16,160 nt of DNA, from the NCBI GenBank assembly GCA_001871015.1, contig MNUO01000062.1, positions 8,689 through 24,848 of the forward strand. Reading direction: 5' to 3'. This document shows positions 2,022-16,160 of this stretch, piece after piece (position 1 is the stretch's first letter; every line of letters begins with the position of its first letter). The DNA comes from Candidatus Desantisbacteria bacterium CG1_02_38_46. GTDB taxonomy: Bacteria; Desantisbacteria; UBA1551; UBA1559. The position numbers and the translations under genes were made by a program. The notes under the pieces were generated by a model that was not told where the DNA came from, made no database searches, and saw nothing but the letters and a program-made list of their open reading frames with translations.

Positions 2022-3863
2022 ATGGAAAAATCAATTAAGGTAACTTTTCAACCTGAAGGATTGAGCGTTTATGTTATGCCAGGTACCACTGCCTTAGAAG
2101 CAGCTGGAGAAGCAGGCATTATTATTGATTCTACTTGCGGCGGAGGGGGAACCTGTGGGAAGTGCCGTATTGTGGCAGTTGAGGGACAGACAGACCCCAA
2201 TGCGGTTGAGAGGAAATTAATTGAAAAGCGTGATATTCAAAAGGGTGTACGGCTCGCCTGTCAGACAAAAATTATTGCACCTTTTGTATTGCATGTTCCT
2301 CAATCTTCACGTTTTTCAGCACAGAGAATCCTTGTTTCAGGAGTAGAAGGTGATAGGGAAATAAAACCAAGCATATGGAAAACATATGTAGAGTTACCTC
2401 GTTCTACACTGGCTGCTCCGATTGCTGACCTTGAGCTTATCAGAAAAAAAATGGAAGGTTTTCATGTAGATATTTATTTGATGCGCAGATTGTCAGCACT
2501 ATTGCGTGAAAGTGATTTTAAAATCACCTGCGTATTTTCAAATGGGGAATTGATTAGCGTTGAGAAGGGAGACACTTCAAAGCAAATCTATGGAGTAGCT
2601 TTTGATATTGGCACAACTACACTGGTGGGGACGTTGCTTGATTTAAGCACCGGAAAGGATATAGCAGTTTCAAGCAGAATGAACCCCCAGGTGATTTACG
2701 GCGACGATGTTATTTCGCGGATTAATTATGTGATTAATAATGAAAAAGGACTCCAGGAACTTCACGATAGGCTCGTGGAAACAATGAACGAAATGATTGG
2801 TGAATTAGCGCAGGCAGCGAACATCAAAAGGGAAAATATTTACAAGATAACTGTTGCCGGAAATTCCACGATGCAACACCTATTTTTGAATATTACACCT
2901 GAATCTTTAGGTTCCATTCCATTCGTTCCCGTATTAAAGGAAGGACTTGAGGTTAAAGCAAAGCGGATGGGAATCGAGATTAACCCGGATGGCATGGCTT
3001 TTGTACTTCCCAACATTGCGGGTTTTGTTGGTGGAGATACAGTGGCAGTTATGCTTGCTACTCAATTATACAAAGGTAAGAAGCTCATGCTTGCCATAGA
3101 TATCGGGACGAACGGAGAAATAGTTTTGGGAAATGAAGACCGTTTAATTTCTGCATCCACTGCTGCTGGACCTGCTTTTGAGGGAGCCAGAATAGGACAG
3201 GGTATGAGGGCCTCTACGGGTGCGATAGAAAAAGTTGTAATAAGTGACGATGTGTCCGTAAATGTAATTGATAATGCTCCTCCAATAGGAATCTGCGGGA
3301 CTGGATTAATAGATGCAGTGGCAGAGATGCTTAAATACGGTATAATCGATGAGAGCGGCAGGATTCTTTCTAAGTCGTCTTTGAATGGTAGAGTCCCTGC
3401 AGAAATTCTTAAACGGATTGTCGAAAGAGATGGAAGTAATAACTTCATATTGGTGGAAGAATCCGAATCCTGTCCACCGATTTTTATTACCCAGAGAGAT
3501 GTTCGGGAATTGCAACTTGCAAAAGGAGCGATATACGCGGGGATAAAAATACTGGAGAGTGAATTAGGAATAGGGGATGACGATATTGATGAAGTACTCC
3601 TTGCAGGTGCATTCGGGAATTTTATCCGCAGGGAAAATGCCAGGGCTATTGGGTTAATTCCAGACTTACCTCTGGAGAAAATAAAATTTATTGGAAATGC
3701 TGCTTCATCCGGAGCAAAATTGGTTTTACTTTCTGAAAACCTGCGTTTGAAAGTTGAAGAAATTTCAAAGAATACAGAATATATTGAGCTTTCTAACCGT
3801 ATTGATTTTCAGGATGAATTTGCCAGCGCAATGTTTTTTAATAAATCAGGACTAAAGTCCTGA
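2022..3863 (+). CDS. RACo-like ASKHA/DUF4445 protein with N-terminal [2Fe-2S] domain
   Basis: This 613-residue protein matches the reductive activators of corrinoid proteins (RACo), which use ATP to drive an electron onto the cobalt of a corrinoid methyl carrier. The N-terminal ferredoxin domain has Cys39, Cys45, Cys48 and Cys80 in the CX5CX2CX31C spacing of a plant-type [2Fe-2S] cluster. The actin-like ATPase region shows phosphate-binding segments at about 192-201 (VAFDIGTTTL) and AIDIGTNGEIVLG, and VLLAGAFGNF near the C-terminus. I chose ATG at 2022; an upstream GTG at 1983 lies inside a hairpin repeat. No strong Shine-Dalgarno is visible. The last residues SGLKS and the TGA stop come from the palindromic repeat. 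No corrinoid protein or methyltransferase is adjacent, so the partner is unknown. Confidence 0.88.
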   Translation: MEKSIKVTFQPEGLSVYVMPGTTALEAAGEAGIIIDSTCGGGGTCGKCRIVAVEGQTDPNAVERKLIEKRDIQKGVRLACQTKIIAPFVLHVPQSSRFSAQRILVSGVEGDREIKPSIWKTYVELPRSTLAAPIADLELIRKKMEGFHVDIYLMRRLSALLRESDFKITCVFSNGELISVEKGDTSKQIYGVAFDIGTTTLVGTLLDLSTGKDIAVSSRMNPQVIYGDDVISRINYVINNEKGLQELHDRLVETMNEMIGELAQAANIKRENIYKITVAGNSTMQHLFLNITPESLGSIPFVPVLKEGLEVKAKRMGIEINPDGMAFVLPNIAGFVGGDTVAVMLATQLYKGKKLMLAIDIGTNGEIVLGNEDRLISASTAAGPAFEGARIGQGMRASTGAIEKVVISDDVSVNVIDNAPPIGICGTGLIDAVAEMLKYGIIDESGRILSKSSLNGRVPAEILKRIVERDGSNNFILVEESESCPPIFITQRDVRELQLAKGAIYAGIKILESELGIGDDDIDEVLLAGAFGNFIRRENARAIGLIPDLPLEKIKFIGNAASSGAKLVLLSENLRLKVEEISKNTEYIELSNRIDFQDEFASAMFFNKSGLKS

Positions 3864-3960
3864 GTTACGTTGGGCAGGTCAGGACTAAAGTCCTGAGTTA
3901 CGTTGGGCAGGTCAGGACTAAAGTCCTGAGTTACGTTGTAACTCAAACCTTTAGGTTTGA
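3846..3960. repeat. Tandem 33-bp palindromic repeat array ending in an inverted half
   Basis: Two full 33-bp units (3846-3878, 3879-3911) and a third partial one (3912-3937) each begin with TCAGGACT-AA-AGTCCTGA, an 18-nt palindrome, followed by GTTAC and a GTTGGGCAGG linker. The array closes with GTAAC and TCAAACCT-TT-AGGTTTGA (3938-3960). The first unit overlaps the end of the RACo-like gene and supplies its stop codon. The array ends 18 nt before the panD ATG. There are no unique spacers, so it is not a CRISPR array. Confidence 0.92.
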
Positions 3961-3977: not shown

Positions 3978-4343
3978 ATGCTTAGAATAATGTTGAAGTC
4001 AAAAATTCATCGGGCAAGAATTACCGCTGCCGAGCTTGAATACGAGGGTAGCATTACTATAGATAGCCTATTAATGAGGGAAGCCGATATCCTGCCGGGT
4101 GAACAAGTGTGGGTTTTAAATATGAGAAATGGGGAAAGGTTTATTACATATGTCATAAAGGGCAGTGAAGATTCCGGAGAGATTTGCCTGAATGGTCCTG
4201 CGGCTCATCTTGGCAAAGTTGGTGATGAAGTCCTAATTTTATCTTTTGTTTCTGTTGATGAGAAAGACATAAAGAATTATAAGCTAAAGATTGTTCTTGT
4301 TGATAAGAAAAATAAAATTGTCTTAGGACCTGCTCGGTCTTAG
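3978..4343 (+). CDS. panD: Aspartate 1-decarboxylase
   Basis: PanD converts L-aspartate to beta-alanine for pantothenate and coenzyme A synthesis. The 121-residue proenzyme has the self-processing site in EYEGSITID: cleavage between Gly24 and Ser25 gives the pyruvoyl group. Lys9, His11, Arg54 and Tyr58, which act in catalysis and processing, are all at canonical positions. ATG at 3978 is preceded by GGGAGG at 3968-3973. The longer upstream start would run into the repeat. The C-terminus after about residue 114 (VLGPARS) and the stop codon come from the 17-bp tandem repeat, so the native tail may have been replaced. The core is intact and the enzyme should be active. Confidence 0.96.
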   Translation: MLRIMLKSKIHRARITAAELEYEGSITIDSLLMREADILPGEQVWVLNMRNGERFITYVIKGSEDSGEICLNGPAAHLGKVGDEVLILSFVSVDEKDIKNYKLKIVLVDKKNKIVLGPARS

Positions 4344-4404
4344 GACCTACTTGGTCGTAAGACCTACTTGGTCGTAAGACCTACTCGGTCGTAAGACCTA
4401 CTCG
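4320..4404. repeat. Five tandem copies of a 17-bp repeat between panD and def
   Basis: Five head-to-tail 17-bp units (starts 4320, 4337, 4354, 4371, 4388) share the form GTCGTAAGACCTACTYG; the first two read GTCTTAGGACCT. Each contains a GACC...GGTC inverted pair with its neighbour. The array covers the last panD codons, including the TAG stop in unit 2, and abuts the AGGAG site of def. Seventeen is not a multiple of three, so expansion here shifts frame and would only be tolerated at a gene end. Confidence 0.93.
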
Positions 4405-4421
4405 GCAGGAGTAAAGTGAAT

Positions 4422-4913: not shown

Positions 4914-5693
4914 ATGCATTCTTTTATTATTAAGGGAATAATAGAAACTTCTTTGCTTGACTGGGAAGGCAAGGTTGTCACTACACTTTTTACCCCCGGT
5001 TGTAACTTTCGCTGTCCATATTGCCAGAATGCAGGATTGGTTCTTCGTCCCAGGAGATATAAAACAATTTCTTTATCAACAATTGCAGATCATTTGTTAA
5101 AATACAAAAATTGGATTGATGGAATTTGCCTCACTGGAGGAGAACCCTGCCTGTATGAGGATATTGATGAGTTTCTACAGGAGATAAAGAGACTCAAATT
5201 TGGCGTCAAACTTGATACAAACGGCGCATTTCCAGAGGTTATCGAAAGACTGATTCGAAAAAAACTGGTGGATTATGTAGCTATGGATGTGAAGGCACCC
5301 ATAGAAAACAGTTCAAAGCTCGAAGCTCAAAGCTCAAAGTTAAAAGACGATGTAGTGGCAGGGCTTGCCCTGCAAAAAGAAACAAAGTACCAAAAAGCGA
5401 CGGGAATAAAAGTTGACATAGAAAAAATTAAAGAGAGCATAAATATAATTATGAAATCTAAGATTGATTATGAATTTAGAACAACAGTTGTGCCAACCCT
5501 GCACACTCCTGAGGATATACTGGCAATCGCAAGATGGATAAATGGTGCGAAGAAATACAGTCTGCAAAATTTTTCCAACAAAGAGCCGATGAACCCGGAT
5601 TTTAAAAAGATAATTCCTTACAAGAGAGAAGAATTGGAGGAAATGAAGAATCTGGCGTTTCCGCTTGTTAAGGAATGTGTGGTAAGAGGGTGA
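4914..5693 (+). CDS. nrdG: Radical SAM anaerobic ribonucleotide reductase activating protein
   Basis: This 259-residue radical SAM enzyme belongs to the NrdG-type activases that install the glycyl radical on class III ribonucleotide reductase in anaerobes. The [4Fe-4S]/SAM motif is CNFRCPYC (Cys30, Cys34, Cys37), followed by the GGEP SAM-binding segment (about 74-77). The start IIKGIIETSLLDWEGKV is characteristic of the short NrdG2-like subgroup. Residues 131-156 are not expected: this is an in-frame insertion made of degenerate CTCAAAG repeats and a 23-bp palindromic element, lying between DVKAPIE and KYQKATG. A pyruvate-formate-lyase-type activase is an alternative, and no nrdD is visible. 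The start overlaps nothing but directly follows def. Confidence 0.85.
   Translation: MHSFIIKGIIETSLLDWEGKVVTTLFTPGCNFRCPYCQNAGLVLRPRRYKTISLSTIADHLLKYKNWIDGICLTGGEPCLYEDIDEFLQEIKRLKFGVKLDTNGAFPEVIERLIRKKLVDYVAMDVKAPIENSSKLEAQSSKLKDDVVAGLALQKETKYQKATGIKVDIEKIKESINIIMKSKIDYEFRTTVVPTLHTPEDILAIARWINGAKKYSLQNFSNKEPMNPDFKKIIPYKREELEEMKNLAFPLVKECVVRG
5311..5373. repeat. In-frame composite repeat insertion inside nrdG
   Basis: Bases 5311-5346 are degenerate copies of GCTCAAA(G) giving the peptide SSKLEAQSSKLK. Bases 5351-5373 are a TGTAGTG tag followed by GCAGGGC-TT-GCCCTGC, the same 23-bp design as in hypD and the cca gene. The reading frame (GTA GTG GCA) differs from that in hypD, and the third frame would give a TAG stop. 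Confidence 0.82.
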
Positions 5694-5703
5694 AAATTGC
5701 CCA

Positions 5704-5736
5704 AAATTTGACTTTTTTAGAAAAATGAGTAAAATA
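5704..5736 (+). promoter_or_regulatory. Sigma-70-type promoter upstream of the DUF4143 ATPase gene
   Basis: TTGACT at 5708-5713 and TAAAAT at 5730-5735 are separated by 16 nt, a near-consensus -35/-10 pair. The 33-nt block matches 7111-7143 at 31 positions. Downstream lies a 20-nt perfect palindrome and then the ATPase gene. Assignment as a promoter is inference from the motif, the repeat and the intergenic location. Confidence 0.65.
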
Positions 5737-5753
5737 TAAAAGTGGCGATGATT

Positions 5754-5773
5754 TTGTCTTCCATGGAAGACAA
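5754..5773. promoter_or_regulatory. Perfect 10-bp inverted repeat in the leader of the ATPase gene
   Basis: TTGTCTTCCA is followed at once by its reverse complement, giving a 20-nt perfect palindrome. It lies between the predicted promoter and the ATG at 5816. It could be an operator for a dimeric repressor or an mRNA hairpin; the AT-rich flanks do not distinguish these. Confidence 0.6.
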
Positions 5774-5815
5774 TTTTATATAGAAACTTGACTTTTTAAG
5801 AAGGCAGATATAATT

Positions 5816-7099
5816 ATGAATAATCAGATAAAAAAAGAAGATTTTAAACTTCTAATCAAGGAATTTCATACAGACCTTTTACCTGAAACCTTTCAGAGAG
5901 AATTAAAAATCCCTTTTTTTTCTAAGAAAATAATTACTGTTTATGGTCCACGTCGGAGTGGGAAAAGTTTTTATTTTTTAACTTTGATTAAAGAACTTCT
6001 GCGACAATCTATTCCAAGGGAAAGAATTTTATACCTTAATTTTGAAGATGATCGAATTTTACCTCTTGATTTTAAAGAATTAAATCTCCTTTTAGAAGCA
6101 TATTTTGAACTTTATCCAGAAAATAAAAGTAAGGAAATATTTTTGTTTTTTGATGAAATTCAAAATATTAAAAATTGGGAAATTTTTGTAAGGAGAATTT
6201 ATGACCGAGAAAATGTAAGAATATTTATCACTGGCTCTTCTTCAAAATTATTATCAAAAGAAATCGCCACTTCTCTTCGCGGTAGAACAATAAGTTATTC
6301 TTTATACCCTCTAAGTTTTAAGGAATTTTTATCTTTTAAAAACGAAAGAATAGAAAAGGATTTTGAATATACTTCCCTGAGATTTAAAATTAAGAAATTA
6401 CTGGAAAAATATATTGAATGGGGTAGTTTTCCTGAAATTGTTCTTGAAGAAGATTTAATTTTAAAAAGAAAAATTCTCTCTGAATATTTTAATTCCCTGG
6501 TTTACCGTGACCTTTCTGAGAGATTCTCTTTAGAAAATACCGATTTATTAAAAGATCTTTTAAAATTTCTTTTTACCAATTTTACCTCTTATTTTTCTAC
6601 AAATTCTTATTTTAATCTAATTAAACAAAAACTATCAGTTTCTCGAGAAACAATTTCACTGTATTTATCCTATATCAAAGAAACTGATTATTTTTCTTTT
6701 TTACCTTTATTTTCTTATTCTTTAAAAGTTCAAAAGATAAATTCTAAAAAGATAATTTGTCTGGATAATGGGTTAAGGAACGCCGTAGCGTTTCAATTTT
6801 CTCAGGACAGAGGAAAACTTATAGAAAATATTGTAGGTATGAACCTGAAGATGAAAGAAAAAGAAATTTTTTTCTGGAAAAACAAAAGAGAAGTAGATTT
6901 TATACTAAAAGAAAAAAATAATCTTAGTGCAGTTAATGTGTGTTTTTCTCAAACACTACCACAAAGAGAAATAGATGGCCTTTTAGAGGTTAAAGAGAGA
7001 TTGAAAAATATAAAGGAACTGATTTTGATTACTAAAGATATACAAAAAGAAGAAAATGGAATTAAATTCATTCCTCTCTGGAAGTGGTTGTCAGTATAA
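5816..7099 (+). CDS. ATP-binding protein, AAA_14/DUF4143 family
   Basis: A 427-residue protein with an N-terminal AAA+ domain and a C-terminal DUF4143 domain. Walker A is GPRRSGKS (44-51), and Walker B is EIFLFFDEIQN with Asp113-Glu114. ITGSSSKLLS and LRGRTISYSLYPLSFKEFL (about 138-171) are the usual sensor and post-sensor segments. The C-terminal end resembles the degenerate PD-(D/E)XK fold of these proteins (LIENIVG near 335, KREVDFILK near 358), but the expected ExK is replaced by SAVNV, so nuclease activity is doubtful. Cellular role of the family is not settled. The gene is visibly more AT-rich than its neighbours, has its own promoter and is flanked by 33-nt direct repeats, which suggests acquisition as a separate unit. 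AAGAAGG at 5799-5805 is the probable ribosome-binding site. Confidence 0.9.
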   Translation: MNNQIKKEDFKLLIKEFHTDLLPETFQRELKIPFFSKKIITVYGPRRSGKSFYFLTLIKELLRQSIPRERILYLNFEDDRILPLDFKELNLLLEAYFELYPENKSKEIFLFFDEIQNIKNWEIFVRRIYDRENVRIFITGSSSKLLSKEIATSLRGRTISYSLYPLSFKEFLSFKNERIEKDFEYTSLRFKIKKLLEKYIEWGSFPEIVLEEDLILKRKILSEYFNSLVYRDLSERFSLENTDLLKDLLKFLFTNFTSYFSTNSYFNLIKQKLSVSRETISLYLSYIKETDYFSFLPLFSYSLKVQKINSKKIICLDNGLRNAVAFQFSQDRGKLIENIVGMNLKMKEKEIFFWKNKREVDFILKEKNNLSAVNVCFSQTLPQREIDGLLEVKERLKNIKELILITKDIQKEENGIKFIPLWKWLSV

Positions 7100-7110
7100 A
7101 AATTTTGTTG

Positions 7111-7143
7111 AAATTTGACATTTTTAAAAAAATGAGTAAAATA
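7111..7143 (+). promoter_or_regulatory. Sigma-70-type promoter upstream of the LysM-NlpC/P60 gene
   Basis: TTGACA at 7115-7120 and TAAAAT at 7137-7142 with a 16-nt spacer. This near-copy of the block at 5704-5736 differs at two positions. It begins 12 nt after the ATPase stop codon, so the wall enzyme has its own transcript start. Confidence 0.68.
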
Positions 7144-7144
7144 A

Positions 7145-7168
7145 TATTTATCTACTGAGAGATAAATA
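7145..7168. promoter_or_regulatory. Hairpin in the leader of the LysM-NlpC/P60 gene
   Basis: TATTTATCT and AGATAAATA form a 9-bp stem around ACTGAG, directly downstream of the predicted -10. Position relative to the promoter parallels the palindrome at 5754-5773, although the stem sequence is unrelated. With the start within 15 nt, it may influence initiation of translation. No clear Shine-Dalgarno is visible before ATG 7183. Confidence 0.55.
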
Positions 7169-7182
7169 ATTACAAAAAACTT

Positions 7183-8082
7183 ATGAGAAAAAGAATTGTA
7201 TTGATATTTTTTACTTTGACAATATTTATTCCATACATTTCTCATGCCGGGATATACAGGGTTAAACCTGGTGATAACCTCACAAAAATTGCTTCAAGAT
7301 ATAATATTACAGTTAGAGAATTAATGAGCCTTAACGGATTAAGAGGCGAATTAATCAAGGTTGGTCAGAAAATCAAGGTTCCTGACATTCAAAATAGTGA
7401 ATTCTCCACTTCATCGGCGAGCAGGAAAGATTCTACTACAACTAATACTGAAGTTGTATTTAAAGTGCCTCGCAGAATTCTGGTCGGATATAAAGTTAAA
7501 AGTGGCGATACTTTGCTCGGGCTGGCGCGTCGTTTCCACACTTCGGTCAGAGAATTGAAGAGAATCAATTCACTCAAGACTGATACTATTGTGATAGGTC
7601 ATGTTTTGAAAGCGCCGTCTTATAAAATGGAAGAAGTAAGGTTACCCAGAGTGGATATTGCCATAGATACAAATGTTTGCGCCGAAGCTGAAGCCTTCGA
7701 TACCAGACCATTTCAGCTGGTGCAGATTGCCAAAGAATATCAGGGTATTCCTTACAAGCGTGGAGGGGAATCTCCATATAGAGTTGATTGCTCGGGTTTT
7801 GTGAGGATGCTATTCAAGTGTTTTGACATATTGCTGCCAAGGACAAGCCGCAATCAATTTGAAATAGGTGAAAAGGTAAAGACTATTACAGTTGGGGACC
7901 TGCTGTTTTTTGCTACCCGTGGTTCCAGTCGCGTCAACCATGTTGGAATATATATCGGGGACGGCAAATTTATACATGCTTCTTCTGCAGAAGGTAAAGT
8001 TGTAATTTCTCCAATCAGTTCATACTACAAAAATAGGTTTCGCGGTGCAAGGAGGGTCTGGGAACTTTTTGCACAAGAATGA
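7183..8082 (+). CDS. Secreted LysM-LysM-NlpC/P60 peptidoglycan endopeptidase
   Basis: A 299-residue exported cell-wall hydrolase that should cut peptide stems of peptidoglycan. The signal peptide has basic residues (MRKR) and a hydrophobic core, with likely cleavage after SHA (residues 20-22). Two LysM domains for glycan binding lie at about 24-67 (YRVKPGDNLTKIA) and 102-145 (GYKVKSGDTLLGLA), joined by a Ser/Thr-rich linker. The NlpC/P60 domain occupies about 178-295, with catalytic Cys203 in DCSGF, His253 in NHVGIYIG and a third polar residue at His265. Its own promoter lies upstream. The stop is followed 5 nt later by a long inverted repeat. The domain order is typical of Spr/gamma-glutamyl endopeptidase-like enzymes. 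Confidence 0.94.
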   Translation: MRKRIVLIFFTLTIFIPYISHAGIYRVKPGDNLTKIASRYNITVRELMSLNGLRGELIKVGQKIKVPDIQNSEFSTSSASRKDSTTTNTEVVFKVPRRILVGYKVKSGDTLLGLARRFHTSVRELKRINSLKTDTIVIGHVLKAPSYKMEEVRLPRVDIAIDTNVCAEAEAFDTRPFQLVQIAKEYQGIPYKRGGESPYRVDCSGFVRMLFKCFDILLPRTSRNQFEIGEKVKTITVGDLLFFATRGSSRVNHVGIYIGDGKFIHASSAEGKVVISPISSYYKNRFRGARRVWELFAQE

Positions 8083-8087
8083 AAAGT

Positions 8088-8155
8088 GAAAAGGGGACGC
8101 TTCTACTTTTTCTTATCCGTCGGGGTGTAGTAAAAAATAGAAGCGTCCCCTTTTC
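8088..8155. repeat. 18-bp perfect inverted repeat around a 32-nt centre
   Basis: GAAAAGGGGACGCTTCTA at 8088-8105 is repeated in inverted orientation at 8138-8155. The left arm follows the NlpC/P60 stop codon and the right arm ends in CCCCTTTTCTTTT, so it could also terminate transcription in either direction. Inner flanks (CTTTTT and AAAAAAT) continue imperfect pairing. GGGGACGCTTCTA repeats of this kind are commonly seen next to IS200-like REP-associated transposases in environmental genomes, but no transposase is present here. It separates the wall-enzyme unit from the hyp genes. Confidence 0.85.
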
Positions 8156-8169
8156 TTTTAGAGGTAGAA

Positions 8170-8412
8170 ATGCATGAGAGTGGGATAGTAAAAGGAATAT
8201 TGAAGAAAGTAATTGCTGAGGCACAATCCAATCAAGCTAAGAAGGTTTTAAAAATAAAATTGAAGGCTGGTAGTTTTGAAATGCTTACTTCTGAGCATCT
8301 CCAATATCACTTTTCTTTATTGTCAAAAGGTTCCATTGCAGAGGATGCACTTATTGAGCTCGAGGAGTTTCCTGGTTCAGGTATAACGATTGAAACATTG
8401 GAGGTCGAGTAA
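8170..8412 (+). CDS. hypA: HypA-like nickel metallochaperone lacking the zinc finger
   Basis: HypA binds nickel and delivers it to the [NiFe]-hydrogenase large subunit. The start MHESGIVKGILK carries the nickel-binding Met1-His2-Glu3, and the alpha/beta core with MLTSEHLQYHF is clear. The protein has only 80 residues instead of about 115. The part normally holding two CXXC pairs is missing: IELEEFP runs straight into GSGITIETLEVE, which is the usual final strand. There is no cysteine in the protein. The gap is clean and in frame, so this is not a sequencing frameshift. AGAGGTAGAA upstream is the likely ribosome-binding site. The TAA stop lies inside a palindromic repeat. hypF follows. Confidence 0.85.
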   Translation: MHESGIVKGILKKVIAEAQSNQAKKVLKIKLKAGSFEMLTSEHLQYHFSLLSKGSIAEDALIELEEFPGSGITIETLEVE

Positions 8413-8454
8413 ACTCGACCACTACATTGGAGTCGAGTAAACTCGACCACTACA
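8404..8454. repeat. Two tandem copies of the 23-bp TGTAGTG-tag palindrome, minus orientation
   Basis: GTCGAGT-AA-ACTCGAC followed by CACTACA occurs at 8404-8426 and 8432-8454, joined by TTGGA. On the opposite strand this is the tag TGTAGTG plus a 7-2-7 hairpin, the same design as in hypD, nrdG and cca, but with a different paired arm. The first copy provides the hypA stop codon. Confidence 0.9.
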
Positions 8455-8499
8455 GTAGTGACACGACCCTGGCTCTGTAAAAAAGATGATTGGTTTAAA

Positions 8500-10857
8500 A
8501 TGAAAAATAAAAGAATCAGGATAATTTTGGATGGAGTGGTTCAGGGCGTAGGGTTTCGTCCATTTGTGTATCGTCTGGCGAACTTGTTAGGTTTAAAGGG
8601 ATATATTTTTAATTCAACGCAGGGCGTTGTTATTGAAATTCAGGGGGAAACATCGTTAATTAAGAGGTTTTTGCATTCATTGAAGAGAGATGCTCCTCCA
8701 ATTTCACTCGTAACAGGAGAAAAAATTGAGACCCTGCCAGAGAAAAAATTCCGTAAGTTTGAAATCAGAGAGAGCCGTAAAGAGAGAGAAAAAAACATAC
8801 TAATTTCTCCCGATATTGCTACCTGCAATAAATGTCTTCAGGAACTTTTCAATGCCCAGGATAGAAGGTTTCATTATCCTTTTATCAATTGTACGGATTG
8901 CGGGCCAAGGTTTACAATTATTCATGACCTTCCTTATGACCGTCCCAGGACTACAATGCGAAAATTTAAAATGTGCGTGGACTGTCAAAGGGAGTATGAA
9001 GACCCGATGACACGTAGATACCATGCCCAGCCCAATGCCTGTCCAAAATGCGGGCCTGCTATTACATTGATTTCGTCTGCCAATCCATCAGAGTTTAAGT
9101 ATAGAGGAGAAAGGGCTGTATCCAGGGCAGTAACACTGCTTAAAAGAGGTTATATTCTTGCTGCTAAAGGGATTGGGGGGTATCATTTAATCTGCGATGC
9201 ACAGAATTCAGAATCCGTAAAGAAATTGAGGGAAAGAAAAAAACGTCCATTCAAGCCATTTGCTATTATGTCTCTGGATGCAGACAGGATTTCCCAATAC
9301 TGTTATGTAAGCAAAGACGAGAAGAGATTGTTGGAGAACCCCAGACGTCCAATTGTGCTTTTACGCAAAAGGGACAATAATTCAATCAGCAAATTTGTTG
9401 CCCCGAACAATAATTACTTAGGTACAATGTTACCATACGCACCAATTCATTATCTTTTGTTATCTTCATGTTCCACGCTGGCAATTGTAGCGACGAGTGC
9501 AAATTTAGTAGACCAACCTTTGATTATAAATGATAAAGAGGCAATTCAAAAACTATCGGAAATAGCAGACTATTTTTTGATTCATAACAGAGATATATAT
9601 AATCGCTGTGACGATTCAATAATTCAGGTTATGGATGGAAACCCTGTGCTCCTGCGCAGAGCAAGGGGTTATGTGCCACTGCCAATTCGCCTCAGGTTCC
9701 ACCTCCGGTGGAAGAATGATAAAATTCAGATGCTTGGATGTGGAGCAGAACTGAAAAATACATTTTGTCTGGTAAAGTCTGAGCATGCTTTTATGAGCCA
9801 GCATATAGGTGACTTAAAGAATTTAGAAACTTTTGAATTTTACAGGGAGCAGATTGAATCTTTTAAAGATTTGTTCGGGATTAAACCACGGATTGTCGTT
9901 TATGACATCCATCCTGATTATCTTTCCACCAAATATGCCTTTGAACAGAAGAATTGCAGAATGTTTGGTGCACAGCATCATCATTCGCATATCGCAAGCG
10001 CTATGGCAGAAAATGGATTAAATAAAAAAGTTATCGGTGTTGCATTTGACGGCATTGGTTATGGGCTTGATGGCAACATATGGGGCGGGGAATTTTTCAT
10101 TGCAGACTATAATGATTTCAAGAGAGTCGGGCAATTAAATTATATACCAATGCCCGGGGGAGATAAGGCAACACAAGAACCTTACCGTATGGCAATCAGT
10201 TATCTTTATCACGCTTTTGGGCAGGCTATTAGAAAATTGAAAATAGATTTTATAAGAAGGATAAAACCTGAGAATCTAAATTTAATTTTAAATATGATAA
10301 ATGAAAATATAAATTGTCCACTTTGTTCAAGCATGGGAAGGTTTTTTGATGCGGTGTCATCTATTCTTGGCATCTGCGATATTTCAACTTATGAAGGACA
10401 GGCAGCAGTGGAATTGCAGATGAAAGCAGAAAAGGCAGAAGTAGCGCCCCGATTTTATCGGGGCTGTAGTTATAATGGGTTCAGAGCTCAAGGTTATAAA
10501 TACAAAATAACAGAAAAAAATGTGGTATGGATTATAGAAACAGATTGGGTTATTCAGAATATTGTTAAAGATTTACAAAAGAAAATTCCTGCAAATGTGA
10601 TTGCTGATAAATTCCACAGGACGATTTCCTGTATTGTTCTGGATACTTGCAGTAGAGTGAAAAATAAATCTGGAATAAATGATATTGTGCTCAGCGGGGG
10701 TGTATTCCAGAATAAATTGCTTACCGAAATGACCCTGAAATTATTGAGAGAAAATTATTTTTCGGTCTATACGCATCATGAGATTCCCCCAAATGATGGA
10801 GGAATTTCTTTAGGGCAGGCAGCAATCGGGATTTCAATGATGGAAAGCCGAGCGTAG
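8500..10857 (+). CDS. hypF: Carbamoyltransferase HypF, [NiFe]-hydrogenase maturation
   Basis: HypF carbamoylates the C-terminal cysteine of HypE using carbamoyl phosphate and ATP, the first step toward the cyanide ligands. All domains are present in 785 residues: an acylphosphatase domain (VVQGVGFRPFVYRL, 13-26), a double zinc-finger region with paired cysteines 109/112, 131/134, 159/162 and 181/184, a YrdC-like domain (about 205-395), and a Kae1-like domain with HHHSH (493-497), DGIGYG and LSGGVFQNKL. I chose ATG 8500 because the acylphosphatase fold starts there; GTG 8458 is open but begins in repeat sequence. No strong Shine-Dalgarno is seen. Small palindromes at 9697-9713 and 10446-10464 lie in frame at two interdomain or loop positions. 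The final residues and stop come from a GAGCGTAG repeat. Confidence 0.96.
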   Translation: MKNKRIRIILDGVVQGVGFRPFVYRLANLLGLKGYIFNSTQGVVIEIQGETSLIKRFLHSLKRDAPPISLVTGEKIETLPEKKFRKFEIRESRKEREKNILISPDIATCNKCLQELFNAQDRRFHYPFINCTDCGPRFTIIHDLPYDRPRTTMRKFKMCVDCQREYEDPMTRRYHAQPNACPKCGPAITLISSANPSEFKYRGERAVSRAVTLLKRGYILAAKGIGGYHLICDAQNSESVKKLRERKKRPFKPFAIMSLDADRISQYCYVSKDEKRLLENPRRPIVLLRKRDNNSISKFVAPNNNYLGTMLPYAPIHYLLLSSCSTLAIVATSANLVDQPLIINDKEAIQKLSEIADYFLIHNRDIYNRCDDSIIQVMDGNPVLLRRARGYVPLPIRLRFHLRWKNDKIQMLGCGAELKNTFCLVKSEHAFMSQHIGDLKNLETFEFYREQIESFKDLFGIKPRIVVYDIHPDYLSTKYAFEQKNCRMFGAQHHHSHIASAMAENGLNKKVIGVAFDGIGYGLDGNIWGGEFFIADYNDFKRVGQLNYIPMPGGDKATQEPYRMAISYLYHAFGQAIRKLKIDFIRRIKPENLNLILNMINENINCPLCSSMGRFFDAVSSILGICDISTYEGQAAVELQMKAEKAEVAPRFYRGCSYNGFRAQGYKYKITEKNVVWIIETDWVIQNIVKDLQKKIPANVIADKFHRTISCIVLDTCSRVKNKSGINDIVLSGGVFQNKLLTEMTLKLLRENYFSVYTHHEIPPNDGGISLGQAAIGISMMESRA
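9697..9713. repeat. Small in-frame palindrome inside hypF
   Basis: TTCCACC-TCC-GGTGGAA gives a 7-bp stem with a 3-nt loop. It encodes part of RFHLRW between GYVPLPIRL, the end of the YrdC-like region, and the KIQMLGCGAELKN that begins the Kae1-like domain. It falls at a domain junction, where extra residues are easily tolerated. Confidence 0.6.
10446..10464. repeat. In-frame palindrome inside hypF Kae1-like domain
   Basis: GCCCCGAT-TTT-ATCGGGGC, an 8-bp GC-rich stem with a 3-nt loop, is preceded by GTAGC and followed by TGTAGT. The encoded peptide APRFYRGCSYNG is atypical for this part of HypF. The GTAG context is reminiscent of the TGTAGTG element family. Confidence 0.65.
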
Positions 10858-10871
10858 CAAGGGGAAAAAAT

Positions 10872-11093
10872 ATGTGTCTGGCAGTTCCTGTTAAAGTGGT
10901 AAAGATTACAGGCGATACAGCAACTATTAATGCAGGAGGAGTTTTGAAAGATATAAGTATTCTCCTGCTTCAAGGAGTAAAAGCTGGCGACTACGTCCTT
11001 CTTCATGCCGGTTTTGCCATTCAGAAGATAGACGAGAAAGAAGCAAATGAAACCCTGAAAATCATATACGAAGCTGGTTTACTTGATAGCTAA
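10872..11093 (+). CDS. hypC: Hydrogenase maturation chaperone HypC
   Basis: HypC is the small chaperone that carries the Fe(CN)2CO unit with HypD and then binds the hydrogenase large-subunit precursor. The 73-residue product starts MCLAVPVKVV with the essential Cys2 (Cys1 after Met removal) and has the OB-fold pattern GDYVLLHAGFAIQKID typical of the family. AAGGGG at 10859-10864 lies 7 nt before the ATG and overlaps the end of the repeat that closes hypF. Length is normal. A 92-nt gap with a palindromic repeat separates it from hypD. Confidence 0.96.
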   Translation: MCLAVPVKVVKITGDTATINAGGVLKDISILLLQGVKAGDYVLLHAGFAIQKIDEKEANETLKIIYEAGLLDS

Positions 11094-11123
11094 GGAAATT
11101 ATACCAAAAGTTATCCACAACCT

Positions 11124-11169
11124 TCAGGACTAAAGTCCTGAGTTACGTAACTCAGACCTTCAGGTCTGA
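11124..11169. repeat. Complete double palindrome, GTAAC-tag family, between hypC and hypD
   Basis: TCAGGACT-AA-AGTCCTGA followed by GTTAC joins head to head with GTAAC followed by TCAGACCT-TC-AGGTCTGA. The 46-nt unit could fold as two hairpins or as one long imperfect cruciform. Compared with 33-55 and 3938-3960, the right arm changes AAACC/GGTTT to AGACC/GGTCT, so pairing is kept. It ends 16 nt before the hypD ATG. Confidence 0.93.
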
Positions 11170-11185
11170 TTTTACTTGAGGAGAA

Positions 11186-12394
11186 ATGAAATTCAGCACA
11201 GAGTTTCACAATTATAAATTAGCAGGTGGTTTGGTCCAGGCAATAGCCAGGATTGCACCCCGAAGTTCACTAACCTTTATGGATATATGTGGAACGCACA
11301 CTGTAAATATCTTTAAATTTGGAATAAAAAATCTCTTGCCTCCGACAATAAATTTGATTTCTGGTCCTGGATGTCCGGTTTGTGTTACTTGCGAAGAAGA
11401 TATAAATTCTGCCATAGAAATTTGCAATCTACCAGATACAATTCTTCTGACCTTCGGCGATATGTTGAGAGTACCAGGCAGTTACTCGAGTCTTGAAAAG
11501 GAAAAGTCAAAAGGAAGAGATGTGAGAATTCTTTATTCTCCTCTCAAAGCGCTGGAGATATGCAAAAAAAATTTATCCAGGAGAGTAGTATTTTTTGCAA
11601 TTGGATTTGAGACCACATCTCCTACCATTGCTGCTACCTTAATCCAGGCAAAGCACGAATGCGTAAAAAACTTTTTCATCTATCCATCTCATAAATTGAT
11701 TCCACCAGCGATGAGAGCAATTCTGGATGGTGGTTATGCCAACATTGATGGTTTTATCTGTCCGGGACATGTGAGCACAATAATTGGCTCCCGAGCCTAT
11801 GAACATATAGCCCGCAGGTACAGCATTCCCTGTGTTATAACTGGTTTTGAACCACTTGATATTCTCCAGGGAATTTATATCCTTCTGAGGCAGATTGTCC
11901 GTATCAGAAATTCTGGATGCGGTGCTAAGGTTGAAGTTCAATACAAAAGATGTGTGACAGGAAATGGCAACACGGTTGCAAAGAACATTCTTTCAAAGGT
12001 ATTTAAAGTCGTGGACGCTAAATGGAGAGGACTGGGAATAATACCGAATAGCGGTCTGGCATTGCGTAGAGAATATGCAATGTTTGATATAAGAAGTAGC
12101 TGTCCGATTCATCGCACTTGTAGTGGCACGATTCATCGCACTTGTAGTGGCACGATTCATCGCACTTGTAGTGGCACGATTCATCGCACTTGTAGTGGCA
12201 GAGTTTACTCTGCAGTTTACTCTGCAAAGAAATGTCGCTGTGGCGAAGTGCTGCGCGGTATAATTAATCCGGAAGAATGCCGTTTATTTGCAAAGGTTTG
12301 CACTCCACAGAATCCTTGTGGACCCTGTATGGTTTCAAGTGAAGGTACCTGCGCTGCACATTATAAATACGGTCAAAAGTACGATTTTGCTTGA
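11186..12394 (+). CDS. hypD: Hydrogenase maturation protein HypD with in-frame repeat insertion
   Basis: HypD is the iron-sulfur scaffold on which, with HypC, the Fe(CN)2CO group of [NiFe]-hydrogenase is built. Family motifs are intact: DICGTH (Cys35), SGPGCPVCVT (Cys63, Cys66), FAIGFETTSPT and CPGHVSTIIGSRAYE. The C-terminal iron-sulfur region has CRCGEVLRG, PEECRLFAKVCTPQNPCGPCMVSSEGTC. The protein is 402 residues, about 40 longer than usual. The excess is at 308-347: four copies of IHRTCSG plus VYSAVYSA, placed between YAMFDIRSSC and KKCRCGEV, encoded by tandem palindromic repeats. This adds four cysteines just before the cluster-binding segment. GAGGAG at 11178-11183 sits unusually close to ATG 11186. 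Frame is kept, so it is probably functional. Confidence 0.95.
   Translation: MKFSTEFHNYKLAGGLVQAIARIAPRSSLTFMDICGTHTVNIFKFGIKNLLPPTINLISGPGCPVCVTCEEDINSAIEICNLPDTILLTFGDMLRVPGSYSSLEKEKSKGRDVRILYSPLKALEICKKNLSRRVVFFAIGFETTSPTIAATLIQAKHECVKNFFIYPSHKLIPPAMRAILDGGYANIDGFICPGHVSTIIGSRAYEHIARRYSIPCVITGFEPLDILQGIYILLRQIVRIRNSGCGAKVEVQYKRCVTGNGNTVAKNILSKVFKVVDAKWRGLGIIPNSGLALRREYAMFDIRSSCPIHRTCSGTIHRTCSGTIHRTCSGTIHRTCSGRVYSAVYSAKKCRCGEVLRGIINPEECRLFAKVCTPQNPCGPCMVSSEGTCAAHYKYGQKYDFA
12105..12200. repeat. Four tandem 24-bp repeats in frame inside hypD
   Basis: Four identical 24-bp units (12105-12128, 12129-12152, 12153-12176, 12177-12200) each contain TGTAGTG and CGATTCATCG. Read from the tag, a unit is TGTAGTG plus a 16-nt imperfect palindrome (GCACGAT-TC-ATCGCAC) plus T, so it is a 24-nt version of the 23-bp element. 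The length, a multiple of three, keeps the hypD frame at any copy number. Confidence 0.96.
12191..12225. repeat. 23-bp TGTAGTG-tag palindrome with 12-bp duplication in hypD
   Basis: TGTAGTG plus GCAGAGT-TT-ACTCTGC occupies 12191-12213, then AGTTTACTCTGC is repeated at 12214-12225. The encoded peptide TCSGRVYSA is nearly identical to TCSGRACSA in the CCA enzyme. The tag is shared with the last of the 24-bp units. Confidence 0.92.
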
Positions 12395-12468
12395 TTAGAA
12401 TTAAAAAATTTGGAGAGCGAAATTCAGGCAACAGAAAATAAAATTGAAGGGTACCTGAAGGAAATAAA

Positions 12469-13935
12469 ATGACAGTAATTATGGAACCCTATAGTAAATA
12501 TGAAACAATAAAAATTGAATATAAGGAGTCAAGGCAAAGTCTGTCCCAGAATATCTATCAGACAATTTCTGCATTCGCCAATACAAAGGGCGGAAAAATT
12601 GTGCTGGGAATAAAACAGGAAGGAAACAAATTGATAAAACAGGGCGTGGAAAATCCTCAAAAACTTATAGACGACCTCATTTCTACTGTCAGTCAGAAAT
12701 TCAATATCTGCCCGATGGTAAAACCTGAGATTAAAAAGGAAGGAAAGAAATACCTCGTAGAAATTTATGTAGACGAGGCTTTGAGATACGAAAAGCCTAT
12801 TTACATAAAAGATGCAGGTCCATTAAAAGGTGGGTTTAAGAGAGTTGGTTCGGTTGACATAAATCTGACAGACAAAGACCTCCAGATATTCTATCAGGAG
12901 AGAATGGATTCCCCGGATGCGCAGGTATTAAAAGATACTTCTTTGTCTGACACAGATAAAAAAGCAATCTCTGCTTTCAAGAATATGAGGGAGTTTGAAA
13001 TAGGAAAGAAAGGGGAATCTCGTCTTTCTGGTAAGGAATTGCTCAAATCCTACAACCTATTGTCAAAAAATAGCAGACATCTTGCAATTGCAGGTTTATT
13101 ACTTTTCGGAAAGATCCAAACAATAAAAAGACACTTCCCACATTTCAGGATTGACATTATCCGTATAAAAGGCACCGAATGGGGAAAAGACAAAGACCCG
13201 TTCTTGTCAACAGACCTTCAAGGGAATTTAATAAACCTGAGGATTCAGGTTCTGGATATCATAGATAGATTTTTTCTGACTCCCTTTAAGCTGGGGAAAG
13301 ACCTTGCACGAATTGATATTGACCCATTCAAAGAGGCATTGAGAGAGGCGTTAAGCAATCTCTTGATGCACCAGAATTATTTTCATCCTTCTCCTTGCCA
13401 AATAAGAATTTACAATGACAGGATTGAATTTTACAATCCTGGCTATTCCCTAAAAAATCCTGATTCCTATGACATTCCTGGTTCAGAACTACGCAATGCT
13501 TTAATTGCCACGGTTTTCTATGATATTGGCTGGGCAGAGACAAAAGGTACAGGATTCAGGACTACAATATTGACACTAGAGAAAGAGGGATACCCAAAAG
13601 CAATCTGGACAAACGACGAAAGGAATGACACTTTCACAATAGTTTTTCCCTATCCTGCCGAGCAGATCACCCCACAAGTCAGTGACCAAGTCAGTGACCA
13701 AGTCAGTGACCAAGTCAAGGAGATGGATAGGAATGCCAAGATTTTGAAATTTTGTGAACAAGTTCGCTCCTTAAAGGAAATAATGCAATTTTTAGGGGTG
13801 AAACACAGGACTCATTTCCTGAGCCAGACTTTGGACCCGTTAATAGAAAAGGGATATTTAAAAAGGACAATACCAGCTAAACCCAAAAGTAGATTCCAGA
13901 AATATGTTGCATCAGGCAAGTCATTGCGAGCGTAG
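12469..13935 (+). CDS. Schlafen/AlbA_2 domain ATP-binding protein (transcriptional regulator-like)
   Basis: A 488-residue protein with an N-terminal AlbA_2/Schlafen domain ([27 protein letters not shown] with LGI, about residues 15-50), a middle region, and a C-terminal GHKL-type HATPase_c_4 segment ([33 protein letters not shown]). QVSD is repeated three times (about 403-414) before a C-terminal winged-helix-like part. Such proteins are usually annotated as putative transcriptional regulators; ligand and target are unknown. AAGGA at 12458-12462 supports ATG 12469, with ATG 12481 as an alternative. It interrupts the hyp gene order between hypD and hypE and looks like a later arrival. The last residues SLRA and the TAG stop come from a TCATTGCGAGCGTAG repeat. 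Confidence 0.9.
13674..13717. repeat. 12-bp tandem repeat encoding QVSD
   Basis: CAAGTCAGTGAC occurs three times and a partial fourth follows, giving [14 protein letters not shown]. It is a linker between the ATPase-like part and the C-terminal helix-turn-helix part. Similar QV-(S/T)-D-QV linkers are common in this protein family, so it is probably not a mobile element. Confidence 0.85.
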
Positions 13936-13978
13936 CGAAGCAATCTATCTTTTTTCTCCCTAGTGTGGGAGAGGTTCG
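13921..13978. repeat. TCATTGCGAG...GAAGCAATCT element plus CTCCC/GGGAG hairpin
   Basis: TCATTGCGAG and GAAGCAATCT at 13921-13946 form an inverted pair (ATTGC...GCAAT) around CGTAGC. This is followed by TCTCCC-TAGTGT-GGGAGA at about 13956-13973. The first part overlaps the end of the Schlafen-like gene and gives its stop. The same outer arms occur in frame inside the cca gene at 15414-15518. Confidence 0.85.
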
Positions 13979-14038
13979 AAGGACTCCGTATGAGTTTTTG
14001 GATTCCATCGGAGACGAAGGTGAGAAGTGGAGATTAGT

Positions 14039-15055
14039 ATGAAAAATAACGAAAGGATACTTTTAGGGCATGGGTCAGGCGGTGAGTTAATGCATAATTT
14101 GATTAAAGATATTTTTGTCAAAGAGTTTAATAATCCAATTTTGAATCGTCTGAATGATGGCGCTGTTTTGAATCTGGGTAGAAATAGTAGACTGGCATTT
14201 ACAACTGATTCCTATGTCGTCAGCCCGATTTTTTTTAAAGGAGGAGACATTGGTTCACTTGCTGTATACGGCACAGTTAACGACCTGGCAATGTGTGCAG
14301 CCACTCCACTTTACCTTTCCCTTTCTTTGATTATAGAAGAAGGATTTTCTATTTCTGATTTGAAAAAAATAATTTGTTCCATAAAAAGAGCAGGTAGTAT
14401 TGCTGGCATATCTGTTATAACAGGGGATACTAAGGTGGTGGAAAAGGGAAAAACCGACAAAATTTTTATAAATACCAGCGGGATAGGTGTTGTCCATAAA
14501 AACTTGAGTATTTCCGGCAACAATGCAAAAACAGGAGATAAAGTAATCTTAAGCGGGTCCATCGGAGACCACGGCATTACCATATTAAACGAAAGAGGAA
14601 ATCTGGGATTTAAAGCTAATCTGAAAAGCGATTGTCAGCCCCTGAATTATCTCGTATTAAAAATGCTCAAGGTGAGCAGGAAAATTCATTGTCTCAGGGA
14701 CCCGACCAGAGGGGGATTGGCTACCTCGCTGAATGAAATTGCTATTGCTTCGAAGGTGGGAATAGAAATAAATGAAAGTGCAATTCCAATTCGCAGAGAA
14801 GTCAGAGCAGCCTGCGAGATGCTCGGTCTTGACCCGATTTATGTGGCAAATGAAGGAAAACTTGTTGCAATTGTTGCCAAGGATGATGCGAAGGCAGTTT
14901 TAAGTGTTATGAAGAAATCTAAATGGGGAAGAGATGCGGCTATAATTGGTACTGTGATTAAGGATTCATCAGGAACGGTCGAACTTAAAACAACAATAGG
15001 TGGAACCCGGGTGGTTCAGATGTTAACAGGCGAGCAACTTCCAAGAATATGCTGA
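14039..15055 (+). CDS. hypE: Hydrogenase maturation protein HypE
   Basis: HypE dehydrates the thiocarbamate made by HypF on its last cysteine to thiocyanate and passes the cyanide to the HypC-HypD complex. The 338-residue protein shows the ATP-binding pattern of the PurM/ThiL fold: LLGHGSGGELMHNLI at the N-terminus, FTTDSYVVSPIFFKGGDIG, VNDLAMCAA, TGDTKVVEKG and DPTRGGLATSLNEIA. It ends in EQLPRIC, with the C-terminal cysteine that is carbamoylated and dehydrated, so it is complete. I chose ATG 14039, preceded by GGAG at 14029-14032; GTG 14027 is open but too close to that site. The TGA overlaps the start of the cca gene. Confidence 0.97.
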   Translation: MKNNERILLGHGSGGELMHNLIKDIFVKEFNNPILNRLNDGAVLNLGRNSRLAFTTDSYVVSPIFFKGGDIGSLAVYGTVNDLAMCAATPLYLSLSLIIEEGFSISDLKKIICSIKRAGSIAGISVITGDTKVVEKGKTDKIFINTSGIGVVHKNLSISGNNAKTGDKVILSGSIGDHGITILNERGNLGFKANLKSDCQPLNYLVLKMLKVSRKIHCLRDPTRGGLATSLNEIAIASKVGIEINESAIPIRREVRAACEMLGLDPIYVANEGKLVAIVAKDDAKAVLSVMKKSKWGRDAAIIGTVIKDSSGTVELKTTIGGTRVVQMLTGEQLPRIC

Positions 15056-16160
15056 AGAAAAAGGCGGTTTCGATTTTGGGGATAGCCAGCAAACTTGCCG
15101 CGGCAAGGAATGAGAAAATTTACCTTGTCGGCGGATATATTCGCGATTTGTTGTTGGGAAGAGTGACATATGACATGGATTTTGCACTTGATGGCAACGC
15201 AAAAAAATTTTCGAGCTCGCTCGCTAAGAAAATTGGTGCAAAGTTTTTTGTTCTTGATGAAAAAACCCAGACCTTCAGGATAACTTGTAGTGGCAGAGCT
15301 TGCTCTGCGCGTTGGAATATAGACATCAGTAAAATGCAGGGAAAAGATATAATTGCTGACCTCAAACGACGGGATTTCAGCATCGATGCGATGGCAATTG
15401 ACCTCAATAATGGTCATTGCGAGTCGAAGCCCCCCAATTTTACTTTCGCCGAAAGTAGGCTCTCTGGAAGAGCCGAAAGTAGGCTCTCTGGAAGAGCCGA
15501 AAGTAGGCGAAGCAATCTCGTTGTTTTGATAGATCCATTTTCTGGATTAAAGGATTTGAAAAAACGCATAATCAGGGTTACTTCTCCAGGAGTGTTAAAT
15601 GACGACCCTCTGCGTTTATTAAGGGCGTTTCGCTTGGCTGCAACGTTAGGGTTTAAGATTGAAAGCAGGACCCTGAAAGCAATTTCTGTCCGTTCCTCAC
15701 TCATTAAAAAAGTGAGCAGAGAAAGAATAAGGGATGAACTTTTCAAAATTTTGCCAGTTGATAATAGTTATGAGTATATTTCGCAAATTGATAAATCCTG
15801 CCTGCTCGAAAGAATTATTCCTCAGATAAAAAAAATGAAACAGGAGCGGGGTTTATGGATGCACTCGCTATTAACCCTCAGATTCCTGGAGAATCTCCTT
15901 AGAAAGAATCGTCTTGAACGAATCTGGTCCACAGCTATAGCCAGCAAGACAAAAATCCATCTCAGGAATGAAGTTTCAACCCAGAACACGAGGGGCACTC
16001 TGCTCAAATTTGTTTCATTGTTCCACGATATTGGTAAACCATCTACGAAGAAGATGCTAAATGGGAAAATGAGTTTTATAGGACATGATAGAGTTGGTGA
16101 AGAAATTTTAAGGAAAATATCAGAATATCTCAGATTGAGCAATAAGGAGATAAAAGTTAT
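15049..16160 (+). CDS. cca: CCA tRNA nucleotidyltransferase, 3' end outside the window
   Basis: The reading frame is open from ATG 15049 to the window edge (370 codons, no stop). It is a class II CCA-adding or poly(A) polymerase family enzyme that builds tRNA 3' ends. The nucleotidyltransferase core shows LVGGYIRDLLLGR (27-38), the catalytic DMD at 42-44, RRDFSIDAMAI (107-117), DPFSGLKDLKKRIIRV and DDPLRLLRAFRLAATLGF. An HD-type segment FHDIGKPSTKK with GHDRVGEEI follows. Two in-frame insertions are unexpected: TCSGRACSA (79-87) and about 34 residues at 123-156, both encoded by palindromic repeats. The ATG overlaps hypE by 7 nt, so translation is probably coupled. The product may be tRNA-specific or poly(A)-adding; specificity cannot be read. 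Confidence 0.9.
   Translation, partial: MLKKKAVSILGIASKLAAARNEKIYLVGGYIRDLLLGRVTYDMDFALDGNAKKFSSSLAKKIGAKFFVLDEKTQTFRITCSGRACSARWNIDISKMQGKDIIADLKRRDFSIDAMAIDLNNGHCESKPPNFTFAESRLSGRAESRLSGRAESRRSNLVVLIDPFSGLKDLKKRIIRVTSPGVLNDDPLRLLRAFRLAATLGFKIESRTLKAISVRSSLIKKVSRERIRDELFKILPVDNSYEYISQIDKSCLLERIIPQIKKMKQERGLWMHSLLTLRFLENLLRKNRLERIWSTAIASKTKIHLRNEVSTQNTRGTLLKFVSLFHDIGKPSTKKMLNGKMSFIGHDRVGEEILRKISEYLRLSNKEIKV
15286..15308. repeat. In-frame 23-bp TGTAGTG-tag palindrome in the cca gene
   Basis: TGTAGTG followed by GCAGAGC-TT-GCTCTGC. It is read in the same frame as in hypD and gives TCSGRACSA. It falls between the strands QTFRI and WNIDIS, next to the active-site region, where family members normally have only a short turn. 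Confidence 0.9.
15414..15518. repeat. Nested repeat insertion in frame in the cca gene
   Basis: Outer arms TCATTGCGAG (15414-15423) and GAAGCAATCT (15509-15518) match the element at 13921-13946. Inside lie TACTTTC-GCC-GAAAGTA (15441-15457) and 24-bp tandem units beginning GCCGAAAGTAGG (15448-15471, 15472-15495, partial 15496-15508). The encoded peptide repeats AESRLSGR. It separates MAIDLNNG from VVLIDPFSGLKDL. Confidence 0.92.

Follow-up and report, generated by a model that had tools for sequence, protein, structure and literature searches.

A 23-bp repeat with a strongly covarying hairpin is scattered through a 16,160-nucleotide stretch of Candidatus Desantisbacteria bacterium CG1_02_38_46 (contig MNUO01000062.1, positions 8,689 to 24,848; hereafter the window). 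We consider it highly probable that this repeat is a repetitive extragenic palindromic (REP) family of the GTAG type organised as REPINs, in which DNA hairpins that cannot move by themselves are mobilised in single-stranded form by a TnpA_REP (RAYT) enzyme of the class-2.4 type, a HUH/tyrosine transposase. This reading builds on the anatomy, copy number and covariation of the repeat, its dimer units, its depletion in genes, its frame keeping within them, and transposase linkage in other genomes.

Each element consists of the tag TGTAGTG and a hairpin with 7-bp arms and a 2-nt centre (7-2-7). Five copies, three on the forward and two on the reverse strand, had been reported in an earlier note made from the letters of the window, and their letters and coordinates are all exact. 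TGTAGTG GCAGGGC TT GCCCTGC lies inside nrdG (5351-5373, +), TGTAGTG GCAGAGT TT ACTCTGC inside hypD (12191-12213, +) and TGTAGTG GCAGAGC TT GCTCTGC inside cca (15286-15308, +). On the reverse strand, upstream of hypF, TGTAGTG GTCGAGT TT ACTCGAC (8404-8426, −) contains the TAA stop codon of a small open reading frame (ORF) at 8170-8412, and a second GTCGAGT-type copy in head-to-tail tandem (8432-8454, −) lies just upstream of hypF. Single-strand DNA folding of the isolated copies gave, for all five, a six-pair stem with an unpaired tag; as the folding model does not allow a loop as tight as two bases, the seventh, innermost pair stays open. The hairpin centre is TT or TC, and the 7-2-7 design falls within the GTAG super-family, with its stems of 5-13 bp and short loops.

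Counts of the element are well above those of controls. In the assembly to which the window belongs (1,728,469 bases in 133 contigs, an 88% complete draft), the loose pattern TGTAGTGGN6TTN7 matched 162 times versus 9 times for the reversed control, and the strict 23-mer 91 times versus 0; the strict form had no match in 40 other genomes searched, nearest first. Finer counts come from 513 kb of the 1.73 Mb, sampled as contigs picked for containing matches, the density of which is not the genome average. In this sample, 137 of 205 TGTAGTG sites carried a hairpin with at least six of seven pairs (114 with all seven, 23 with six), and control tags (TGAAGTG, TGTTGTG, TCTAGTG, TGTAGTC, TGTAGTA and others) gave no hairpin site. 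Near-variant tags were followed by hairpins at 34 of 67 sites for AGTAGTG, 7 of 40 for TGTAGCG and 2 of 71 for TGTAGTT, and therefore the constant core is GTAG, then mostly TG. A total of 211 copies of GTAGTG with a hairpin of at least 5 of 7 pairs were collected, so the many further copies that the reading in the earlier note called for do exist, about 200 in the sampled part. The tag itself is less rigid than had been claimed: the leading T of TGTAGTG varies (154 T, 35 A, 16 G and 5 C among the 211 copies), and the constant part genome-wide is GTAG followed by TG, or rarely by CG. Viral contigs of IMG/VR contained no exact match.

Paired changes in the arms, which had been read from a handful of copies, hold across the family. 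The test set comprised 45 distinct 23-mers selected on the tag and a TT or TC centre, with no requirement for pairing; in this set, 81.9% of the pairing cells were paired versus 63.5% in shuffles. The covariation score was 0.531 versus 0.227 after shuffling, exceeding all 500 shuffles, and slid partners scored at most 0.13. Two-sided compensatory change was found at all seven stem pairs, and cells with two-sided changes numbered 66 versus 24.1 in shuffles, although many of these stem from two old stem types and the independent events are therefore fewer than the cell count. These types, GCAGAG.. (A) and GTCGAG.. (B), differ at stem positions 2 and 3 (CA/TG versus TC/GA), which hold much of the two-sided change. 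Moreover, six copies have chimeric stems made of both types, and hence pairing is not preserved in every copy.

REPINs and bacterial interspersed mosaic elements (BIMEs) are made of two inverted REPs that move together as a unit, lie in unrelated flanks and can be clustered in tandem. The repeats here are dispersed in the same manner: unrelated flanks surround 27 head-to-head units, which measure 49-55 bp and have tags outward, one stem of each type and a spacer mostly of 5-7 bp and up to 11. Among neighbouring copies, 22 of the 26 head-to-head pairs and 16 of the 18 tail-to-tail pairs join A to B. Of 38 isolated copies, 31 have a T in front of them. The REP-type interpretation that had been suggested for the window is thus borne out by the copy number, the covariation and the REPIN-like dimers in head-to-head orientation.

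The element occurs, as had been stated, both between genes and inside proteins, with 66 of the 211 copies in ORFs and 145 outside. Genes hold fewer copies than expected (31% of copies versus 85% of random sites fall in ORFs), and those inside keep the frame: 25 of 26 spacings between same-strand neighbours are divisible by three inside ORFs, versus 25 of 69 outside (Fisher P 7e-8). In-frame copies are present in more than 20 unrelated genes. Hosts assigned by Pfam include DprA, topoisomerase I (topA), GHMP kinase, GcpE/IspG, semialdehyde dehydrogenase, AIR synthase, TsaD, an ABC transporter, a PLP enzyme, TrpE, TrpG, an NADH-quinone oxidoreductase/antiporter subunit and Mfd.

Three host genes lie in the window. 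In nrdG (4914-5693, +; NCBIfam TIGR02495 NrdG2, 197.5 bits), one in-frame copy encodes the peptide (D)VVAGLAL, and the match covers 215 protein residues for 191 model positions. Four in-frame copies are found in hypD (11186-12394, +), which matched TIGR00075 (451 bits) in two stretches. Three of these are imperfect, chimeric copies TGTAGTGGCACGATTCATCGCACT forming a 24-bp tandem array (12119-12190, +) that encodes HRTCSGTI repeats; they start at 12119, 12143 and 12167, have 5 of 7 pairs (TGTAGTGGCACGATTCATCGCAC) and precede the copy at 12191, which encodes CSGRVYSA and is followed by a 12-bp partial duplication. Most of this segment is absent from the HypD structure 2z1d, in which 12 chain residues (309-320) stand opposite 41 residues (307-347) of the query. 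The tRNA nucleotidyltransferase gene cca (15031-16160, +) runs off the window; its start codon is provisional, with the frame open from 15001 to the window end. Its element encodes CSGRACSA and is flanked on both sides by homology to CCA/polyA polymerases; it sits in a variable loop, in which net insertion is less evident than in HypD, and the best match, from an Elusimicrobia genome, has only 41% identity. A second in-frame insertion in cca (15448-15508) is built from a 24-bp unit, repeated 2.5 times, that encodes AESRLSGR; 18 related hairpins, GCCRAAAGTAGGC, were counted in the 513-kb sample, several of them adjoining GTAGTG.

A scan of GTDB genomes placed the strict 23-mer, among the matches listed, in WOR-3/Stahlbacteria, Elusimicrobia, Ratteibacteria, Planctomycetes (including Brocadiales) and Omnitrophota. 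Y1 transposase genes are present in 20 of 21 element-bearing genomes, and a separate Y1 group, marked by the motifs NH[IVLF]H and Y(I/V)xNNP, is consistent with class 2.4 as defined by Quentin et al. 2018 (PMC6006769). The best NCBIfam match of these class-2.4-like proteins is NF047646 (REP_Tyr_transpos), with one member above the cut-off and another, the product of a gene with hairpin inserts, just below. At 16 of 17 loci, the class-2.4-like gene contains GTAGNN 7-2-7 hairpins or has them close by; the hairpins of the seventeenth have longer loops. In a relative of the same order, the gene is located between TGTAGCT-GCAGGGC-TT-GCCCTGC copies, whose stem is that of the nrdG copy. Strong class-2.4 matches (E below 1e-45) were obtained in 12 of 21 element-bearing genomes versus 1 of 40 genomes without the strict element; because 6 of the 12 had fed the search model, the independent contrast is 6 of 15 versus 1 of 40.

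Hairpins inside the gene have already been published for class 2.4 (PMC6006769). At loci L251 and L253, the hairpin TTGTAGTTGCAGAGCTTGCTCTGC within the transposase encodes IVVAELAL, and reverse copies encode AKQALPLQ. IVVAELAL occupies the same place in the REP transposases of Ratteibacteria and Elusimicrobia (L251 1795-1818, −; L253 523-546, −), and judged from these sequences it looks as if it were a fixed part of the enzyme. A more far-reaching idea, which we put forward only tentatively and regard as rather doubtful, is the horizontal transfer of a single system, a class-2.4-like TnpA_REP together with TGTAG-NN 7-2-7 hairpins of the same two stem types, between five or more uncultured phyla. 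The system would have inserted, in every one of them, short in-frame peptides into essential proteins and its own transposase gene, with the hairpin peptide IVVAELAL becoming part of the enzyme. The transposase tree has 10 rows, with the Stahlbacteria, WOR-3 and same-order relative's rows absent as the motif filter missed them, and its weak central support means that it cannot decide horizontal transfer.

In our model, the transposase would bind the folded hairpin on exposed single-stranded DNA, GTAG would serve as a guide, and the enzyme would cut and rejoin at nearby sites. It would read the tag, the loop and the stem pairing while ignoring most stem letters, allowing stems to drift by compensated steps. 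Hairpins and head-to-head pairs would spread as single strands, and local tandem expansion and recombination between units could then generate arrays and chimeric stems. Insertions would be kept mostly between genes and harmful ones removed; inside genes, the survivors would be frame-keeping insertions in tolerant loops. Corneloup et al. 2021 (PMC8266576) showed for a perfect-palindrome REP that cleavage depends on GTAG, on the loop and on a paired stem. A mismatch in mid-stem weakened cleavage or left almost none, and the three bottom stem positions tolerated changes. These requirements agree with the pattern of constancy and change in our repeats and support the mechanism.

Several observations weigh against mobilisation by a class-2.4 transposase. 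A search of the 88%-complete assembly of the window's own genome yielded no class-2.4-like gene, its two weak matches being the Y1 genes L031 and L032; the link to the transposase therefore rests on homology, from which its action in this lineage may be presumed. Since REPs flanking a TnpA_REP gene in the same genome define a REPtron, the repeats are not filed as a complete one. The earlier prediction of a REP transposase elsewhere in the genome thus holds for other element-bearing genomes, which carry class-2.4-type genes with GTAG hairpins, and is not borne out by this 88%-complete assembly. In addition, the hairpins closest to the gene in many REPtrons elsewhere are tagged TGTAGTT, TGTAGCG or TGTAGGG and not TGTAGTG, and 79 of the 123 neighbour pairs are head-to-tail, mostly of a single type, an arrangement rare in published GTAG families (PMC3733652). 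Missing transposase, head-to-tail arrays and chimeric stems would all suit orphan REPs, spread in the past by a transposase since lost, and persisting and multiplying only by local tandem duplication and recombination. We give this explanation serious weight, somewhat short of even chances; however, the assembly is incomplete and divided into 133 contigs, and many identical copies and 27 head-to-head units in unrelated flanks are what a dispersal that is not very old predicts.

The remaining explanations appear much weaker. Conserved stem pairing and the mostly intergenic location could also indicate RNA or DNA regulatory elements, acting in mRNA stability, attenuation or protein binding and kept for that function. 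Nevertheless, this is improbable given in-frame copies in so many unrelated genes, the occurrence of copies in both orientations and a patchy distribution across phyla; Rfam gave no match at gathering score in the window, and recognition by a transposase explains stem conservation equally well. It is more improbable still that a class-2.1-type Y1 protein of this genome, L031 or L032, mobilises the repeats, even though the assembly contains no other Y1 genes resembling REP transposases, its one further Y1 gene being an IS200-type fragment at a contig end. We rejected both as the cognate transposase on account of their class, published as having no REPs (PMC6006769), and their flanks, neither of which holds a GTAGTG hairpin. 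L031 has an in-frame TAA and terminal repeats of another, GGGGACG type (AAAAGGGGACG); L032 has a DnaA-type C-terminal domain. The least probable reading, with hardly any weight, takes the repeats as protein-coding inserts of the Rickettsia palindromic element (RPE) kind. It is favoured by the frame kept in ORFs, and the precedent named earlier does stand as to in-frame palindromic coding in genes for functional proteins. But RPE-4 and RPE-6 have a CGTC tag, 8-9-bp stems and 4-5-nt loops (PMC3733652) versus GTAG and a 2-nt centre here, which places them in another family and limits the likeness to in-frame coding; moreover, about 70% of our copies lie outside ORFs.

Other repeats were also observed in the window. 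An inverted pair AAAAGGGGACGCTTCTA at 8088-8155 looks like a miniature derivative of the L031 element, because near-identical repeats flank L031 at 1427 (+) and 2140 (−). A second covarying hairpin family, with GTAAC and 8-2-8 palindromes, is found at 1-55, 3846-3960 and 11124-11169. Its stems are TCAGGACT TT AGTCCTGA, TCAGACCT TC AGGTCTGA, TCAGGGCT TT AGCCCTGA and TCAAACCT TY AGGTTTGA; five main stem/loop sequences total 82 copies in the 513-kb sample, and the GTAAC tag is incompatible with GT[AG]G. At the end of one gene and ahead of the next (4320-4405), a 17-bp unit is repeated 4.6 times; its reverse strand gives GTAG followed by GTCTTACGAC, a short GTAG-tagged palindrome. In the ORF at 12469-13935, a 12-bp tandem repeat (QVSD) lies in frame at 13675-13717.

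These results extend GTAG REP and REPIN biology to uncultured lineages. The natural stem variants, densely represented and strongly covarying, offer a test bed for single-strand hairpin recognition. In-frame hairpin insertions in about 20 genes of one small genome, many with housekeeping roles, present a case of selfish DNA adding peptides to proteins. With identical 23-mers in several phyla, it can be tested whether a repeat and its transposase have spread horizontally as a pair.

Di Nocera et al. 2013 (PMC3733652) had already reported GTAG REPs that show compensated stems, intragenic copies, dimers and an association with RAYTs. Our repeats share with that super-family the unpaired terminal GTAG, stems of 6-9 bp, 2-3-nt TY loops, subfamilies with alternative complementary stem letters, head-to-head and tail-to-tail dimers, intragenic copies and REP ends that supply stop codons. 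They differ in the TG between GTAG and the 7-bp stem, in the prevalence of head-to-tail pairs and in lineages not covered there. Our family may equal one of the 24 GTAG families published in that work. With class 2.4 REPtrons (PMC6006769), the related genes share the NH[IFV]H, YIxNNP and WQ motifs, and the related loci share hairpins flanking the gene and in frame within it, in many phyla; the REPs published for that class are long or double-foot, whereas ours are short 7-2-7 hairpins in an assembly without the gene. Like REPINs (PLoS Genet. 2011, PMC3116915) and BIMEs, our repeats form inverted pairs as units with unrelated flanks and tandem clusters, but our units are short and nearly always combine two different stem types. 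The element thus probably adds a new family, from an uncultured lineage, to a known kind of repeat, with precedents in Di Nocera et al. 2013, Quentin et al. 2018 and Corneloup et al. 2021.

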